A stretch of DNA of 32,665 nucleotides from Acidobacteria bacterium Ga0077522 (GTDB lineage: Bacteria > Acidobacteriota > Vicinamibacteria > Vicinamibacterales > Vicinamibacteraceae). A program made the translations under genes and the position numbers. Shown here piece after piece: positions 2,549 to 19,842 of this stretch (the first letter of the stretch is position 1; each line of letters begins with the position of its first letter). The notes under the pieces were generated by a model. That model ran no database searches. It saw only the letters and a list, made by a program, of their open reading frames with translations, and had not been told where the DNA came from. Location: positions 1 through 32,665 of the forward strand of contig LNDN01000156.1 in the NCBI GenBank assembly GCA_001464065.1, written 5' to 3'.

Positions 2549-4828
2549 ATGTTGCCCTGCTTCACCTCCCGGCTCGTCCGGGTGTCCACCGGCCTGGCCC
2601 TGGGCCTCGGCCTGTCCCTGATCGCGCCGTCGCCGGCCGTTGCGCAGTCCACCGCGCCCGCTGCGGCGATGCAACTCACCGGCCGGGTCCTCTCCGGCGA
2701 GAGCCGTCAGCCAGTGGCCGGCGCCACCGTCGTGCTCGAGGAACGCCGCACGACGGTGTTCACCGATGACACCGGCGCATTCACGCTGCCGACGCCTGCG
2801 TCGGGACTCGTCCACGTGCGCGTCAGCGCCACCGGGTTCCTGCCCATGCGCACCGAGGTCACGCTGGCCGACCCGCTGGCGCCGCTCGAGGTCCTGCTGC
2901 AGGAAGACCTGCACTATGCCGAGGCGGTCACGGTGGGGCCCGAGCCTCGCGACCCCTTCGAGTCCTACCAGCCGACGTCCGTGCTCTCCGGCCAGGAACT
3001 GAGCATCAAGCTCGAGGGGTCGCTCGGCGGGCTGTTGCGCAACGAGCCCGGCGTGTCCGAGCGGTCGCTCGGCCCCGGACCGTCGCGGCCGATCATCCGC
3101 GGCCAGGATGGCGATCGTGTCCTCATCCTGCAGAACAGCCAGCGCACCGCCGACCTGTCCAGCCAGTCGGGCGATCACGGCGTGACGATCAACCCCGCGG
3201 CGGCGACACAGGTCGAGGTGGTCCGCGGCCCGGCGACGCTGCTGTACGGCGCCAATGCGATTGGCGGCCTGGTCAACGTCATCTCGAACCAGATCCCGAC
3301 GCGGCCGGCCACGGGCACCATGGGCGCGGCCCAGGTGGACCTCGCGACCAACGGCGGCCAGGCGGGCGGTGCGGCCGACGTCACGGTGGGCAACGGCCTG
3401 TGGGCGATGAACGTCGGCGGGTCGGCGCGCCGTTCCGGCAACTACGACACGCCCGAGGGTGAGGTCGACAACACGCAGACCCGTGGCTTCTTCGGCAACG
3501 TCGGCGTCGCCAGGACCACGGCCAACAGCTACGTCGGCGCCGGCGTGCAGCTCGACGACACCAAGTACGGCGTGCCGGTCATCGAGGGCGGCGAGATCCA
3601 GCTGACGCCGCGTCGGCAGGTGTACAGCGGCCGCGGTGAAGTGCGCAACATGACCGGGTTCTTCACGTCGGCGCGCGGCTCGGTCGCCTATCACCGTTAT
3701 CGCCACGAGGAACTGGAGGGCGACGAGGTGGGCACAGAGTTCAGGAACGATCTGCTCGACCTCGACTTCCGCGCCACCCATCGTCCGGTCGGCCGGCTGA
3801 CCGGGACGGTCGGCGTGTCCGGCTACACCCGGACGTTCGAGGCCGTCGGCGCCGAGGCGCTGTCGCCGAAGGTGGACCAGAACGTGGTCTCGGCGTTCAC
3901 CTACCAGGAAGTGTCATGGTCGCACGCGACCCTGCAGTTCGGTGGGCGTTTCGACCGGGCGAGTTACGACCCGGCCGGTGGCCTGCGGCCGCGCGACTTC
4001 AACAACCTGTCGTTCTCGCTCGGGTCACTGCTGCGGCCGACCGAGCAGAGCACGCTGGCCATCAGCCTGGCGCGCGCGGCGCGCAACCCGGCGCTCGAGG
4101 AGCTGTACTTCTTCGGCGTGCACGCCGGCAACTTCTCCTTCGAGGTCGGCAACGACGACCTCGACTCCGAGGTGTCGTACGGACTCGACGTGTCCTACCG
4201 CGTCCGCCTGCCGCGCGTCTCGGCCGAAGTGACGTATTTCAACAACACCGTCGACAACTACATCTTCCGCAGCCCGCTGACCGAGGACGAGTTCGACGAA
4301 CGGTTCCCGGGCCTCGAGGAAGAGGGCCACGAGGAAGGGCACGAGGAGGAGGGCCACCACCACGGCGACGAGGAGTTCCCGATCGTCGAGTTCATCGGCC
4401 GCGACGTGCGCCTGCAGGGCGTGGAAGCCCATGCCGACATCGACCTGTCCCGCGGGCTGCACCTCGAACTGGGGCTGGACACGGTGCGGGGCGAACTGCG
4501 TGACGGTGGCGACCCGCTCCCGCGCATCCCGCCGGTGCGGGTCACGGGTGGTCTGCGCTACCACTGGAATGCGCTGCAGCTCGGGGGCCAGGTGGTGCGC
4601 GCGTCGTCGCAGGATCGGGTCTACGACATCGAGACGCCGACCGACGGCTTCACCACGCTCCGCCTGTTCGGCGCCTACTCGCTGCAGGCCGGGCCGACGA
4701 CCCACACGTTCTCGGCGCGGCTGGACAACGTCACCAACGAGCTGTTCCGCAACCACCTGTCGCTGGTGAAGGACCTGGTGCCCGAGATGGGGCGGAACTT
4801 CCGCGTCGTCTGGCAGGTGAAGTTCTAG
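2549..4828 (+). CDS. TonB-dependent outer-membrane receptor, ZnuD-like, with His-rich loop
   Basis: The ATG at 2549, nine nt after GGAG, gives 759 residues with a signal peptide ending in AVAQ. The order is a carboxypeptidase-regulatory-like beta domain (about 38-120, QLTGRVLSGESRQPVAGATV), a TonB-box-like EAVTV, a plug domain (RGQDGDRVLIL, VEVVRGPATLLYGANAIGGL) and a 22-strand-type barrel. The C-terminus ends in FRVVWQVKF, as outer-membrane proteins do with a terminal aromatic residue. Around residues 588-608 lies an extracellular-type loop dense in His, Glu and Asp (GHEEGHEEEGHHHGDEE). Such loops are known in the zinc receptor ZnuD, and the following LPRIPPVR segment also fits that group. 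Zinc or another divalent metal is the likely substrate. A cobalamin substrate was considered because of the adjacent adenosyltransferase, but that gene is convergent and the loop argues for metal. Confidence 0.9.
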   Translation: MLPCFTSRLVRVSTGLALGLGLSLIAPSPAVAQSTAPAAAMQLTGRVLSGESRQPVAGATVVLEERRTTVFTDDTGAFTLPTPASGLVHVRVSATGFLPMRTEVTLADPLAPLEVLLQEDLHYAEAVTVGPEPRDPFESYQPTSVLSGQELSIKLEGSLGGLLRNEPGVSERSLGPGPSRPIIRGQDGDRVLILQNSQRTADLSSQSGDHGVTINPAAATQVEVVRGPATLLYGANAIGGLVNVISNQIPTRPATGTMGAAQVDLATNGGQAGGAADVTVGNGLWAMNVGGSARRSGNYDTPEGEVDNTQTRGFFGNVGVARTTANSYVGAGVQLDDTKYGVPVIEGGEIQLTPRRQVYSGRGEVRNMTGFFTSARGSVAYHRYRHEELEGDEVGTEFRNDLLDLDFRATHRPVGRLTGTVGVSGYTRTFEAVGAEALSPKVDQNVVSAFTYQEVSWSHATLQFGGRFDRASYDPAGGLRPRDFNNLSFSLGSLLRPTEQSTLAISLARAARNPALEELYFFGVHAGNFSFEVGNDDLDSEVSYGLDVSYRVRLPRVSAEVTYFNNTVDNYIFRSPLTEDEFDERFPGLEEEGHEEGHEEEGHHHGDEEFPIVEFIGRDVRLQGVEAHADIDLSRGLHLELGLDTVRGELRDGGDPLPRIPPVRVTGGLRYHWNALQLGGQVVRASSQDRVYDIETPTDGFTTLRLFGAYSLQAGPTTHTFSARLDNVTNELFRNHLSLVKDLVPEMGRNFRVVWQVKF

Positions 4829-4835
4829 CGCGCGC

Positions 4836-5399
4836 CTACAGCTGGCTGTTCCAGATCGGTTCCGGAATGGCCCGCTGGTGGTTCTCGTAGCGCGCCATGA
4901 TGAACAGGGCGTCCGACAGCCGGTTCAGGTAAGGAATCACGAACGCGCCGACCGGCTCCTCGTGCGCGAGCGTGATCGCCTCGCGTTCGGCCCGGCGGCA
5001 GACGGTGCGGGCGACGTGGAGATGGGCGGCGCCGGGGGCGCCGCCCGGCAGCACGAAGTTCTCGATCGGGCCGACCACGTCGTTCAGCTCGTCCATCAGC
5101 GTCTCGAGGGCCTCGACGTGCCGCGGTTCGATCTGCGGAATGCGGTACGTCGCCTTGTCGTCCTCGAGGAAGCACAGGTCCGAGCCGAGGTGGAACAGCT
5201 CGTTCTGGATCACCGGCAGCGTCTGCGCGAGGCGGGGCACCAGGCCGCTGGCGAGGGCCACACCGATGACGGAATTCAGCTCGTCCACGGTGCCGTAGGT
5301 GGAGACTCGCAGGGCATCCTTCGCCACGCGCTGCCCACCCCCGAGCCCCGTCGTCCCGTCGTCTCCCTTGCGTGTGTAGATGCGCGTCAGCCGAGGCAT
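4836..5399 (-). CDS. pduO: PduO-type cob(I)alamin adenosyltransferase
   Basis: Starting at ATG 5399 the protein has 187 residues, the usual length for the PduO family, which moves the adenosyl group of ATP to cob(I)alamin to make adenosylcobalamin. Family signatures are present: the N-terminal ATP-binding loop [19 protein letters not shown], the VCRRAERE helix and [14 protein letters not shown] near the C-terminus. An upstream in-frame extension exists but overlaps the divergent gluQ gene and carries no family sequence, so 5399 is preferred. It is also six nt from a TACAAT element. The stop codon lies 7 nt from the receptor's stop codon in a convergent arrangement without room for a separate terminator. 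Confidence 0.93.
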
Positions 5400-5421
5400 C
5401 CGATCATTGTAGGCTACGCCG
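5400..5421. promoter_or_regulatory. Overlapping divergent -10 elements (pduO / gluQ)
   Basis: Only 22 bp separate the two start codons. On the minus strand TACAAT (plus coordinates 5406-5411) is six nt from the ATG of pduO. On the plus strand TAGGCT (5410-5415) is six nt from the GTG of gluQ. The two hexamers share bases 5410-5411. Both transcripts would be leaderless and could not be initiated on the same molecule at once. Confidence 0.45.
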
Positions 5422-6267
5422 GTGACCATCGGCCGGCTCGCGCCGACGCCCTCCGGGCGGCTGCATCTCGGCAACGTCTGCGCCTTCGCCGGTGCGTGGC
5501 TGTCGGCGCGGGCCGACGGCGGGCGGCTGCTGTTGCGCATCGAGGACGTGGATCGCGGCCGGTCCCGCCTCGACGTCGAAGCGGACCTGCGCGCGGACCT
5601 GGCGTGGCTCGGCGTGCAGGCCGATGCCGAGACGCCGCGGCAGTCGTCGCGCGACTACGGCGCCGTGCTGGCGCACCTCGCGCCACGCCTCTACCACTGC
5701 CGCTGCACGCGCGCCATGCGCGACGAGGGTCTCGTGGCAACGGCCGGGTGCCCCGGCGGCTGTGCCGACCGCGGCTGGCCCGACGGCGCCCTTCGCTTCA
5801 GACTGCGCCCGGGCTTCGCGTCGTTCGTCGATCGCCGCTGGGGGCGATGCGAGAGCGATCCACGCGCCTTCGGTGATCCGATCCTCGTGCGGCGCGATGG
5901 CCTCGTCTCCTACAACCTCGCCGTCGTCGCCGACGACATCGCCGATGGGGTCAGCGACGTGGTGCGCGGCAGCGATCTGCTCGAGTACACGACCGTGCAG
6001 ATGCAGCTGTGGGAGGCGCTGGGCGCGCCGCCGCCGCGCTGGCTGCACACGCCGCTTGTGCTCGGACCCGATGGCCGCAAGCTGTCGAAGTCGCATGGCT
6101 CGGCACACGTCGGCGCGATGCGGGATGCCGGCGCCACGCCCGCCGACGTCTGGCGCATCGTCCTGCCCTGGCTGGGTCTCGAGGGGGCGGGATCACTGCG
6201 CGAGGCGTTGCCACGGTGGGATCCGGCCGCCGGGCCTCGCGGGCCCATCACACTCGCCAGCCCGTAG
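5422..6267 (+). CDS. gluQ: Glutamyl-Q tRNA(Asp) synthetase
   Basis: A 281-residue GTG-start protein matching GluQ-RS, a truncated GluRS paralog without the anticodon-binding domain. It attaches glutamate to the queuosine base at position 34 of tRNA(Asp). The class I HIGH-like signature is [11 protein letters not shown] near residue 8-18 and the KMSKS equivalent is [10 protein letters not shown] near 217-226. A zinc site of four cysteines is visible in YHCRCTR followed by GCPGGC. RIEDVD and the ADD(I)[14 protein letters not shown] segment are also family hallmarks. The length is slightly below 300, as expected. It has no ribosome binding site, but a -10 element lies directly upstream. Confidence 0.93.
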
Positions 6268-6289
6268 CGGCCGTCGACGCGCGCGTGGC

Positions 6290-6925
6290 TCAGACCAGGG
6301 GCGGATGGCCACCCGCAAGGCGCCGCAGCACCGGCAGCAAGGCGTCGGCCATGCGGCGGTAGACGGCCGGCGTCGGGTGCAACTGGTCGGGACTCGCGAA
6401 CAGGAGGTCGGGATGGCCCGGGGCGGCTGCGGCGGCCCGCGTGTCGCAGAACGCCATGCCGGGCCTGCTCGCGGCAGTCGCGCGAATCCAGCCGTTGATG
6501 GCGTGCATGCGCGCGTTCTGGTCGGCCGTCGCCGTGTCGTAGGGAATGATCGAGCAGGCCACGACGGGGAGCGCCGCGCTCAGGGCGCGTTCGTACATCG
6601 CGAGCAGGTGCGCCTGCACCGTCGCGGCATCGCGTCCCTGATACACGTCGTTGACGCCGGCCAGCAGCACGACCACCACGGAGGACTGTGACGCATGCGC
6701 CAGCACGTCGCGGTCGAAGCGCGCCGCGATCTCGTCGGTGCGTTCGCCGTCGACGCCGCGATTGAGGACGCGCCAGGCGGGCTCGGCGCGCGCCAGCCAC
6801 CAGGGGAACTGGCTCGTCACGTCACCCTCGCCGTCGGGCGGGGCCTCGACCGGCGACCGGAACCCCGGCGTGCCCGCCGTCGTCGAGTCGCCGAGCGCCA
6901 CGATGGTGAGGGCCGGCGTCGGCAT
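6290..6925 (-). CDS. SGNH/GDSL-type hydrolase
   Basis: From ATG 6925 the protein has 211 residues. The four SGNH blocks can be read: GDSTTAG with the nucleophilic Ser (about residue 12-18), the block II Gly in NRGVDGERT, AGVNDVY (block III Asn) and DQLHPTP with the catalytic Asp and His near 180. No signal peptide is evident, so a cytoplasmic esterase or lysophospholipase-like enzyme is likely; the substrate is unknown. The start lies 5 nt beyond the stop codon of the M19 dipeptidase, so the two are almost certainly co-transcribed. Confidence 0.85.
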   Translation of the reverse strand: MPTPALTIVALGDSTTAGTPGFRSPVEAPPDGEGDVTSQFPWWLARAEPAWRVLNRGVDGERTDEIAARFDRDVLAHASQSSVVVVLLAGVNDVYQGRDAATVQAHLLAMYERALSAALPVVACSIIPYDTATADQNARMHAINGWIRATAASRPGMAFCDTRAAAAAPGHPDLLFASPDQLHPTPAVYRRMADALLPVLRRLAGGHPPLV

Positions 6926-6930
6926 CGCGA

Positions 6931-8241
6931 TCAGCGGACGGGCGGGAGCGGCTGGCCGCGACGCGTGACGTGATCGACGTCCTCGATCGTCTTGAGCGAC
7001 GGCGCGGTGGACCGCAGGGTCGCGGCCGTGGCCTCGGCGCCGCGCATCACGCGCAGGATGTTGCGGCCAGAGATTTTCGCGAGATCGTCGCTGGAGTACC
7101 CGCGTCGTCCGAGCTCGGCGATGAGGGCCGGGTAGGTGCCGACGTGCTCCAGCCCCTGCACGACCGACGTGATGCCATCGAAGTCGCCGCCGAGGCCGAT
7201 GTGGTCGATGCCCGCGACCTTGCGGATGTGGTCGATGTGGTCGGCGACCTGGGCCAGCGTCGCCCGCGGCTCGGGGTTGGTCGTACGCCACGCCTTCAGC
7301 GCCGCGTCCAGGCCGGCCTTGTCGGCACCGAACTGCGACTGCAGCAACTGGCTCTGCGCCTGCGCCCGCCGCGAGTAGTTGGCCGCGTCCTGCGAGACGA
7401 AACCCGGCACGAAGGTGACCATCACGATGCCGCCGTTGCCGGCCACCTGCCGGAGGATCGCATCGGGCACGTTGCGGGGTACGTCGCAGACCGCCCGCGC
7501 GTTCGAGTGCGAGAAGATCACCGGCGCCCGCGAGACACGGATCGCGTCGGCCATCGTCTCCGGCGAAGTGTGGCTCAGGTCCACCAGCATGCCCAGCCGG
7601 TTCATCTCGCGGACGACCTCCTCGCCGAACGCCGAGATGCCGCCCAGCTTCGGGTCGTCGCTCGTGGAATCGGCCCACGGCACGTTGCGGCTGTGAGTGA
7701 GCGTCATGTAGCCCGCGCCGAGGCGATGCAGCATGCGCAGCGTGGCGATGGAGCTGTCGATCGAGTGCCCGCCCTCGACGCCCATCATCGACGCGATCTT
7801 GCCGGTGGCCATGGCGCGTTCGACGTCATCGGCCGTGCGCGCCAGCACGAACCTGTCAGGGTAGCGGCGCACCATCTCGTGCACGGCGTCGATCTGTTCG
7901 AGGGTGGCGCTGACCGCCGCGTCTCCCTGCAACTCCGCCGGCACGTACACCGACCAGAACTGTCCCCCGACGTGCCCCTGGCGGAGCCGCGGGAGGTCGG
8001 TCATCAGCTGCGGCTGTGGCGCGGCGATGTCGATGCGGTCGAAGTCGTACCTGGCGCGCTGCCGCATCTCCCACGGCAGGTCGTTGTGCCCGTCGATGAT
8101 CGGCGAGGTGGTCAGGACCGCGGCGGCGCCTCCCGCCGTCCCCGGAGCCGTGGGCGGCGCGGGCTGCGCAGCCACGGGGGCCAGGGCGCCTGAGACGACG
8201 AGGCTGGCCACGACCAGCCGGACATGAAGGAACGCGTGCAT
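6931..8241 (-). CDS. Secreted membrane-dipeptidase family peptidase (M19)
   Basis: A 436-residue protein with a signal peptide (MHAFLHVRLVVASLVVSGALAP, cleavage near VAAQ). The zinc ligands of the M19 renal dipeptidase family are visible: HND in DGHNDLPW, the bridging Glu in GVEGGHSI, His in VDLSHTS and His in IFSHSNARAV. The GIDHIGLGGDFDG segment carries the substrate-side Asp. The family hydrolyses dipeptides, including some with D-residues, and the protein probably acts in the periplasm. It is preceded by the CoA-transferase gene (21 nt gap) and followed by the SGNH gene (5 nt), forming a three-gene unit. Confidence 0.93.
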   Translation of the reverse strand: MHAFLHVRLVVASLVVSGALAPVAAQPAPPTAPGTAGGAAAVLTTSPIIDGHNDLPWEMRQRARYDFDRIDIAAPQPQLMTDLPRLRQGHVGGQFWSVYVPAELQGDAAVSATLEQIDAVHEMVRRYPDRFVLARTADDVERAMATGKIASMMGVEGGHSIDSSIATLRMLHRLGAGYMTLTHSRNVPWADSTSDDPKLGGISAFGEEVVREMNRLGMLVDLSHTSPETMADAIRVSRAPVIFSHSNARAVCDVPRNVPDAILRQVAGNGGIVMVTFVPGFVSQDAANYSRRAQAQSQLLQSQFGADKAGLDAALKAWRTTNPEPRATLAQVADHIDHIRKVAGIDHIGLGGDFDGITSVVQGLEHVGTYPALIAELGRRGYSSDDLAKISGRNILRVMRGAEATAATLRSTAPSLKTIEDVDHVTRRGQPLPPVR

Positions 8242-13621: not shown

Positions 13622-14035
13622 ATGGCCAAGCCTCCCGTCGAAGTCTCCCTGCAGTGGACCCGCGACCTCGTCTTCGACACGGAGGTCGCGGCCGGCCCCG
13701 GACCCGTCCTCGATGGCGACGCCGTCGCCGGTGCGTCGCCCGTCCAGGCCATCGCGCTCGCCCTCGGGGCCTGCATGGGCGTCGATCTCGTGATGATCCT
13801 GAAGAAGGGGCGGCACGACCTGCAGGGCCTGAAGGTCAAGGTCGTCGGGACCCGTGCCGATGGGCCGCCGGCGTACTACACGGGCTACGCCATCCACTAC
13901 GACGTGACCGGCCCGATCCCGGACGCCGCGATCCAGCGCGCCATCGACCTGTCGCGCGACACGTACTGTTCCGTCTGGCACAGCCTGCGCACCGAGACGC
14001 CCCTCGAAGTCACCTTCACCCGGCTCGATGGCTGA
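13622..14035 (+). CDS. OsmC family protein
   Basis: A 137-residue OsmC/Ohr-fold protein. The two redox cysteines of the family are present: LGACMGVDLVMILKKGR (about residue 51) and TYCSVWHSLR (about residue 117), with the basic residue pattern around the first helix. OsmC proteins reduce organic or inorganic peroxides as homodimers, and related YhfA-type proteins have unproven roles. With a MILKKGR helix and a length near 137 it fits the YhfA/OsmC branch better than Ohr. Its position beside feo and a downstream dps gene is consistent with oxidative and iron stress. Its last eight bases overlap the next gene. Confidence 0.88.
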   Translation: MAKPPVEVSLQWTRDLVFDTEVAAGPGPVLDGDAVAGASPVQAIALALGACMGVDLVMILKKGRHDLQGLKVKVVGTRADGPPAYYTGYAIHYDVTGPIPDAAIQRAIDLSRDTYCSVWHSLRTETPLEVTFTRLDG

Positions 14036-15126
14036 GGTGCTGCCGCCGCCGCCGGTCGTGCGACGCGCGCGCGCCGGCTACATCGACTGGATGCGCGGTC
14101 TCGCGGTCCTCATCATGGTCCTCGCGCACGTCGTCGACGCCTGGACCGTGATGGGACCGACCCGACAGACGCGGCCGTACTTCTGGTTCATGGTGCTGGC
14201 GGGGATGGGCGCACCGCTGTTCCTGTGGCTTGCCGGTCTGGCGGTGCCGCTCGCGGCCCATGCGCGCATGCGCCGGGGGGCCTCGCTGGCCGAGGCCAGC
14301 TGGTCACTGCAGAAGCGCGGCTGGCAGATCTTCGGTCTCGCCCTGCTGTTCCGGCTGCAGGCGTACGTCTTCAGCGCCGGCGCCACGATCTACGGGATGC
14401 TCAAGGTGGACATCCTGAACATCATGGGGCTCTCGCTGGTGGCCGCCGGCTGGCTGTGGGGGCGGGGACGGACGCCGCGGACGCGTCTGCTCCTGTCGCT
14501 CGGCGTCACCGTGGCCATCCTGGTCCTCACGCCCCTGCTGCGGGTCTGGTCCTGGCCGGCGGTACCTGCGTCCGGCGCCGGCGCGAAGCACCTTCACGCT
14601 ATTTCCCTGGAGCGCGTTCGTCTTCGCCGGCCTGGGGCTCGGCGAAGGGCTGGCGATCACCGCCGCCGATCGACAGCGCTGGTTCCACGCGGCCTGCCTC
14701 ATCGGCGGCGTCAGCCTCTCCGTGGCCGCGTACCAGTTGTCGTTCGTGCCCACCCTGTTGCCGGGTTCCAACTTCTGGACGACGTCGCCGGCCTTCTTCT
14801 CCGTGCGTCTCGGGGTGCTGGTCGCGGCGTTCGGGCTGCTGTACTTCCTGCTCCACCCCGACAGCGTGTGGGCGCGACTCACGTGGCCTCGACACTGGAG
14901 CCCGATGGAACTGCTCGGGCGCACGTCGCTCTTCCTGTACTGGGTCCACGTCGAGCTCGCCTACGGCCTGCCCTCGCGTCCCCTGCACAAGGCCCTGTCG
15001 TTCAACGGCGCGCTGGTCGCGTTCGCGGTGTTCATGACCGGCATGGTGGCCCTTGCCATGGTCAAGTCGAAGTACTGGGATCACGAAACGCCATGGCACA
15101 GGTCCAGCCGACCTGACGCAGAATAG
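14028..15126 (+). pseudogene. Frameshifted multipass acyltransferase (DUF1624 / HGSNAT-like)
   Basis: The 5' part, from ATG 14028, reads as a membrane protein with the opening YIDWMRGLAVLIMVLAHVVDAW, the pattern of heparan-alpha-glucosaminide acetyltransferase-like and acyltransferase-3-like families. Good family sequence in this frame ends near 14560 (LRVWSWPA). From about 14563 the protein-like sequence continues in the next frame (YLRPAPARSTFTLFPWSAFVFAG ... FLYWVHVELAYG) to a stop at 15126. The span is 1099 nt (3n+1), so one frame break is needed, at about residue 177; several codons of a loop may also be missing. The first frame stays open to 15116 but only as shadow sequence. The function is probably transfer of an acyl group to a surface sugar. 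The ATG overlaps the OsmC end by eight nt. Confidence 0.75.
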
Positions 15127-16732: not shown

Positions 16733-19490
<2,758 letters not shown>

Positions 19491-19497
19491 GGCGCCG

Positions 19498-19503
19498 ACT
19501 ATA
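19498..19503 (-). promoter_or_regulatory. -10 element, leaderless promoter of the M14 gene
   Basis: On the minus strand TATAGT ends seven nt before ATG 19490. The spacing matches that of the GGDEF gene. Confidence 0.4.
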
Positions 19504-19510
19504 GCCGCAG

Positions 19511-19535
19511 ACGGACGCCTCGGCGAGGCGTCCGT
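19511..19535. repeat. Intergenic hairpin, 11-bp stem
   Basis: ACGGACGCCTC-GGC-GAGGCGTCCGT is a perfect 11-bp inverted repeat with a three-base loop, followed by CCCACC. It is in the divergent gap between the M14 gene and pxpA, 25 nt from a second hairpin. Confidence 0.55.
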
Positions 19536-19560
19536 CCCACCCGCGGACGCTTGATGGGAG

Positions 19561-19581
19561 GGACCGCTCGCCGAGCGGTCC
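19561..19581. repeat. Intergenic hairpin, 9-bp stem
   Basis: GGACCGCTC-GCC-GAGCGGTCC is a perfect 9-bp stem with a three-base loop, the partner of the hairpin at 19511. Both stems begin with GGAC and close with CTC/GAG, which suggests two members of one palindromic repeat family. Confidence 0.5.
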
Positions 19582-19682
19582 GTGACCCAGAACTGTGATT
19601 CGAGCCTCGGATTCGTCATCGGCCTCGCCCGCGCCCGCACGCCTGGCGCCGCCAAATACGCGAAAGTCCCTGCATTCGCGGG

Positions 19683-19698
19683 TGGCATGGCGGTTGCT
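19683..19698 (+). promoter_or_regulatory. Candidate sigma-54 (-24/-12) promoter for pxpA
   Basis: TGGCAT-GGCGG-TTGCT matches the TGGCAC-N5-TTGCW consensus, with exactly ten bases between the invariant GG (19684-19685) and GC (19696-19697). The start point would be near 19709, leaving a leader of about 130 nt before the GTG at 19843. Sigma-54 control would suit a gene for nitrogen-source use. Confidence 0.4.
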
Positions 19699-19708
19699 CT
19701 TCTACAAG

Positions 19709-19842
19709 GCGTCGGCGGTCTGTTTGTGGCACGATGCCACAGTGCTGGGGAGCCAGATCGTCGGCAGCAGGGGCTGCGCAATTCTGCGCGGCCTCTGCCC
19801 GTTTATACCGGTCCTCCTGACGACCCGCCACGAGGAGGCCCG
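19709..19842 (+). other. Structured leader of pxpA
   Basis: No gene is seen here. The stretch contains GTGGCA-CGA-TGCCAC (19726-19740), a GCAGC/GCTGC pair around 19764-19777 and further GC-rich pairing, then GAGGAGG (19832-19838), a strong ribosome binding site four nt before the GTG. The first hairpin could also be an operator. Confidence 0.3.

Follow-up and report, generated by a model that had tools for sequence, protein, structure and literature searches.

The 22-bp gap between the divergent genes pduO and gluQ is probably a compact promoter that serves both of them and gives each an mRNA with no leader. RNA polymerase carrying the housekeeping sigma factor would recognise TACAAT, with the A of pduO's ATG as the first transcribed base; in the opposite orientation it would recognise the weaker TAGGCT and begin at the G of gluQ's GTG. 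Both mRNAs would begin at their start codons and be translated through leaderless initiation. The boxes have a TA step in common, since this dinucleotide reads the same on both strands, and the shared step would fix the predicted starts 23 bp apart, a spacing known from other bidirectional promoters. In both directions activity is probably low and constitutive, and steric exclusion would then be momentary, with little effect on levels. The pduO promoter would be the conserved part, overlapping a gluQ box only where the spacer is very short. Transcript starts, sigma factor, promoter strength and lack of competition are the parts of this explanation that we infer. Taken as a whole, the arrangement is probably a neat instance of promoter types already described rather than a conserved switch, since close relatives retain one promoter but differ widely in the spacing of the two genes.

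The gap and its two -10 boxes

The window, meaning the whole 32,665-nt stretch analysed here, has a G+C content of 70.5% and belongs to a genome of 5.44 Mb (G000), which was compared with four more members of its genus (G001-G004). Positions 4836-5399 of the minus strand encode a 187-aa cob(I)alamin adenosyltransferase of the PduO type (TIGR00636, E = 1.2e-57; PF01923, E = 3e-58). On the plus strand, positions 5422-6267 encode a 281-aa GluQ-like tRNA glutamyl-Q(34) synthetase, for which TIGR03838 is the best NCBIfam match (E = 2.5e-66) and the catalytic domain PF00749 the sole Pfam match. With 223.9 bits, TIGR03838 falls short of its curated cut-off (276.7), and the product is likely, though at such a score not certainly, a GluQRS. 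Between the two genes lie 22 bp of intergenic DNA (5400-5421), CCGATCATTGTAGGCTACGCCG.

The pduO start codon is taken as the ATG at 5399 (minus strand), a choice supported by M1, P2, L4 and T5, residues that do not vary among the 9 homologues aligned. A codon-usage gene caller prefers another in-frame ATG, at 5429. For gluQ, the GTG at 5422 (plus strand) has an in-frame TAG 12 nt upstream, and the alignment with congeners starts at this codon or one residue further.

Two other reading frames of the window appear to be interrupted. A long protein, presumably peptidase-like, is split on the minus strand over two frames of 313 and 935 aa (16733-19781); the end of the 935-aa frame becomes nonsense near 17.7 kb, and the split reflects a frameshift or an assembly error. 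On the plus strand at 14028-15126, a protein that we take to be membrane acyltransferase-like seems to carry on in another frame from ~14.6 kb, a second apparent frameshift in the contig.

The pduO -10 element, TACAAT (5406-5411, minus strand), matches TATAAT at 5 of 6 positions, and the candidate gluQ element, TAGGCT (5410-5415, plus strand), at 3 of 6. A first-pass annotation of this DNA had reported that the two hexamers have two base pairs in common and that each lies six nt from its start codon. Both observations hold: TACAAT and TAGGCT both contain 5410-5411, where positions -12 and -11 of the two boxes coincide on opposite strands, and 6 nt separate TACAAT from the ATG and TAGGCT from the GTG. 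With the usual distance between a -10 element and its transcript start, a box that ends 6 nt before a start codon places the start on the codon itself, and a leaderless mRNA is therefore predicted in each direction. The 6-nt spacing puts the predicted starts on the first base of each start codon, A at 5399 for pduO (minus strand) and G at 5422 for gluQ (plus strand), 23 bp apart. The earlier reading missed this leaderless meaning of the spacing, which is common in the genus. Its statement that the gap has no room for separate promoters or leaders is sound for leaders and too strong for promoters, since -35 contacts can lie in the opposite gene.

A matrix derived from the boxes of the genus set, the window being left out, was used to score the two elements. 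Scores in that set run from 4.8 to 11.7, with a median of 9.2 and a 10th percentile of 5.7; the pduO box reaches 8.4 and the gluQ box 5.2, below the 10th percentile. Moreover, two of the three consensus bases of the gluQ box come free because TA is self-complementary and is here the complement of pduO's own TA; with these supplied, T5415 alone is independent evidence for the gluQ box. TAGGCT is the sole TAnnnT found within 300 nt upstream of gluQ, and its position is exact; judged from the sequence, a real box seems the likelier case. The pduO box, which is present in all five genus members and scores 8.4 against the set median of 9.2, goes beyond chance; the case for the gluQ box is weaker. 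A weaker minus-strand hexamer, TAGCCT (5411-5416; score 3.8), lies 11 nt from the pduO ATG and is the mirror of the gluQ -10, TAGGCTA being a TAnnnTA element.

Other signals are sparse. A consensus scan of 4600-6600 found no paired -35/-10 hexamers, a weak test in that shuffled sequences are also expected to yield about none. Neither gene has a recognisable -35, and the genus set has only a slight excess of -35 matches, with a mean best match of 2.86 versus 2.55 in shuffled sequence. Neither strand of the gap contains AGGA, GGAG or GAGG.

Leaderless signals in the genus

The available text of a survey of bacterial genomes describes TAnnnT, lying ~12 bp upstream of the start codon when counted from the first T, as the mark of leaderless genes, and gives their average share in Acidobacteria as 13.3% (9.7 to 19.4) over three of three genomes (PMC3160421). 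In Deinococcus, a -10-motif has been linked to leaderless expression through reporter tests, according to the accessible sections of that work (PMC12340547). Among the papers listed in a literature search, one mentions leaderless genes together with Vicinamibacter; its accessible sections cover Shine-Dalgarno use by class and not the pduO-gluQ site (PMC10783764).

TAnnnT was surveyed in a genus sample made up of 693 kb of the window's genome and 400 kb each of G001 and G002, with d denoting the number of nt between the end of the box and the start codon. Before 567 likely first genes, the motif has a rate of 38.8 per 1000 at d = 6, 31.7 at d = 7 and 19.4 at d = 8, against a background further upstream of 4.6 per 1000 per position. 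At d = 6-8 it is carried by 51 of the 567, versus ~8 expected from this background, and 48 of the 51 genes lie outside the window. Each of the three genomes contributes (23/235, 10/182 and 18/150), and a smaller, earlier sample has the same peak. Control motifs have no such peak: at the same three distances, ATnnnT occurs at 7.1, 10.6 and 1.8 per 1000 (background 6.0) and TTnnnA at 5.3, 5.3 and 3.5 (background 4.5). Internal in-frame start codons (n = 21,157) are preceded by TAnnnT at just 0.7, 0.4 and 0.0 per 1000. Genes close behind a gene on the same strand (n = 488) have a smaller and broader TAnnnT peak.

Gene starts in this survey came from a codon-usage caller, with some starts misplaced and some genes missed. 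Such errors should dilute the peak, and the flat controls argue that they did not create it. A clear Shine-Dalgarno peak is also present in the genus samples. Leaderless initiation thus looks, on these motif counts, like an ordinary mode of the genus that operates beside Shine-Dalgarno initiation. The survey suggests that leaderless genes are common in a little-studied acidobacterial genus.

Divergent pairs were also sampled (n = 159; median gap 187 bp). TAnnnT at d = 6-8 occurs on both sides in 4, on one side in 32 and on neither in 123; the survey took the pduO start as 5429, which led it to count the window pair as one-sided. All 4 two-sided pairs have gaps of at least 71 bp and separate boxes. 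They lie at L236 6992-7064, L245 16362-16443, L217 10033-10272 and L085 10865-10954, and are candidate head-to-head leaderless pairs whose boxes do not meet.

The interlocked form itself was sought as CAY N6 ANNNTANNNT N6 RTG, with exact 6-nt spacing only. It occurs at 6 places in 5 genomes, versus 10 for a control in which TA was changed to AT and 7 for the pattern read backwards. The window pair is alone among the 6 in having strongly scoring frames on both sides, a feature found at 0 of the 10 TA-to-AT control places. A possible second interlocked pair lies at G003:C5:22186-22213, where the plus side has a frame of 123 aa with a score of only 20. The 18-bp class pattern occurs at 1 place, where neither flank has a gene-like frame, and its backward control at 6. 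A recurrent interlocked architecture in the genus was considered and rejected, the places being no more numerous than in controls; a conserved overlap was likewise rejected, because gap lengths differ among genus members. The interlocked form is a rare product and not an architecture.

Conservation, rival readings and origin

All five genus members examined have the divergent pduO-gluQ pair; in G004, gluQ runs off the contig end after 141 residues. The pduO box also occurs in all five, as TACAAT (G000), TAGAAT (G001), TATGAT (G002), TACGAT (G003) and TACAAT (G004), at d = 6 in every genome except G003, where d = 7. The product of the background rates for these five boxes is 5e-10, an overstated figure since the genomes are related. 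A gap of variable length in close relatives, which the first-pass annotation itself had named as speaking against its reading, is what the genus has: 22 bp in the window, 58 in G004, 109 in G003, 182 in G002 and 276 in G001. Because these lengths are so widely spread, the rest of the gap must have turned over around the pduO box. A gluQ TAnnnT at d = 6 is found in 2 of 5 genomes, as TAGGCT in the window and as an unrelated TATCGT in G003, and is absent at that distance in G001, G002 and G004. Within 300 nt upstream of gluQ, other TAnnnT motifs are at least 47 nt off in G001 and G004, and G002 has none. The two boxes overlap in 1 of 5 members, the window's genome alone.

Short tandem units fill much of the pduO spacer in the relatives. 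GCCGAAC units lie upstream of pduO in G001 and G004 (L063, L061), ending in G001 ~15 nt short of the pduO -10, and a CACCGGG-type unit upstream of pduO in G002 (L062) reaches the pduO -10. Units resembling CAGGGATCAGGG lie upstream of pduO in two genomes from another genus, G005 and G006 (L066, L065). Tandem units of this kind may be behind the variable length of the gap.

The low score of the gluQ box, 5.2, would suit an account, rather unlikely in our estimate, in which only the pduO half is real. TAGGCT would then be pduO's TA joined by a T that the very short gap happens to contain, and transcription of gluQ would begin within pduO, or be weak and lack a dedicated box. The unequal conservation of the boxes (5/5 for pduO versus 2/5 for a gluQ box at its place) fits this, as does the fact that TAGGCT owes two of its three consensus bases to the complement of the pduO box. 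However, no other TAnnnT was found within 300 nt upstream of gluQ, the gap has no AGGA, GGAG or GAGG, a chance TAnnnT at one given distance is rare (4.6 per 1000), and G003 carries its unrelated TATCGT at the very same d = 6. A more sweeping account would treat both hexamers as chance A+T patches and put the promoters of both genes inside the neighbouring coding sequence. That the consensus scan, weak as it is, returned no paired -35/-10 site and that the interlocked pattern is not enriched genome-wide would agree with it. Nonetheless, the pduO box keeps a fixed position in 5 of 5 genomes despite turnover of the gap, and TAnnnT is enriched at that distance in the genus samples, which together make chance patches very improbable.

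The first-pass annotation had gone further and proposed that initiation in one direction must exclude the other, linking cobalamin adenosylation to tRNA(Asp) modification in a mutually exclusive way. Exclusion is correct to the extent that one polymerase footprint would block another at a given moment; on the E. coli precedent, it is not expected to govern levels unless one side is activated. A functional exclusion switch joining cobalamin adenosylation to tRNA(Asp) queuosine modification would draw on the overlap of the -10 elements, on the divergent pairing of the genes in 5 of 5 genus members, and on matches to TIGR00276 above cut-off in 7 of 7 genomes. We take TIGR00276 to be the family of the queuosine enzyme QueG. 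QueG requires cobalamin, and a biochemical thread between pduO and gluQ can be imagined. The variable gap (22, 58, 109, 182 and 276 bp, with overlap in 1 of 5) speaks against coupling through promoter overlap, as does the absence of a gluQ -10 at that place in 3 of 5 genomes. Two genomes of another genus of the family have pduO and no gluQ-like gene that could be found, and competition at basal activity in vitro was small in five E. coli bidirectional promoters, as described in the available text of PMC12825309. A switch of this kind is therefore scarcely credible, and a compact leaderless bidirectional promoter is the reading that we prefer.

The history of such a promoter can be sketched from the wider family. 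In G005 and G006, which belong to another genus of the same family, an M19 dipeptidase gene lies directly upstream of pduO on the same strand; the window has its M19 dipeptidase gene at 6931-8241. No gluQ-like gene was found in either genome (completeness 97 and 90%), a neighbourhood which implies that gluQ was gained between pduO and the M19 gene in the window's genus or lost in the other. Nor was TAnnnT found at d = 6-8 before pduO in these two; as far as seven genomes can tell, the divergent pair may share its origin with pduO's leaderless promoter. More tentatively, and with the odds against it, spacer loss in the window's lineage could have let the conserved pduO box lend its TA to a new gluQ box, with one added T completing a leaderless gluQ promoter whose firing is sterically tied to that of pduO. 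If true, this would be a natural case in which a single base gave head-to-head leaderless genes their second mRNA promoter. The difference in spacer length may reflect either shrinkage in the window's genome or growth by repeats in its relatives.

A pduO scan of named genomes gave at least 80 loci, with a best identity of 76% among those listed; records very near the window's genome may be missing from it. Among the loci listed, one (L144) has a gluQ-like gene, ~0.9 kb downstream of its pduO and in the same orientation. The closest PduO among the matches listed comes from a Chloroflexi-labelled MAG (L107, 76%), and in an Anaerolineales-labelled record (L117, 62%) a TATAAT precedes the pduO ATG by exactly 6 nt. 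These matches suggest either horizontal transfer or mislabelled bins.

Comparison with known promoters

By the definition in the available text of PMC10268837, a bacterial bidirectional promoter has divergent starts separated by 7-25 bp and -10 positions that overlap. A separation of 18 bp is the commonest, and 10 and 23 bp are also common. In vitro work on five E. coli cases, their starts separated by 10-23 bp, found that one direction could be weakened with little change in the other; competition appeared once one direction was substantially activated (PMC12825309, available sections). A literature search, in which the papers returned were judged by their listing, found none on leaderless starts at a divergent bidirectional promoter. 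A similar search on Luteitalea (Acidobacteriota, class Vicinamibacteria), most likely the window's genus, found no paper on transcription start sites.

The pduO-gluQ gap suggests that even very short divergent gaps can hold complete promoters for both genes. It also illustrates how readily a -10 box can look like part of a paired switch because its TA is self-complementary. The site makes no long-standing question newly testable; its value is as a simple test object for polymerase sharing at leaderless bidirectional promoters.

Set beside the bidirectional promoters of Warman and Grainger, the pduO-gluQ gap has opposed -10 elements that overlap, both products would be mRNAs, and the predicted separation of 23 bp falls within the range of 7-25 bp. 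Unlike those examples, its starts are predicted from sequence, one of its two boxes is not conserved, neither transcript is expected to have a leader, and the host is an acidobacterium of high G+C content. Set beside TA-led leaderless genes, pduO and gluQ each have the first T of a TAnnnT 12 nt before the start codon, a candidate box in the case of gluQ; the motif is enriched in the genus samples, and the gap has no Shine-Dalgarno core. Unlike ordinary genes of that class, they stand head to head with their boxes overlapping. Among known bidirectional promoters, it is the leaderless character predicted for both starts that would make this one unusual.
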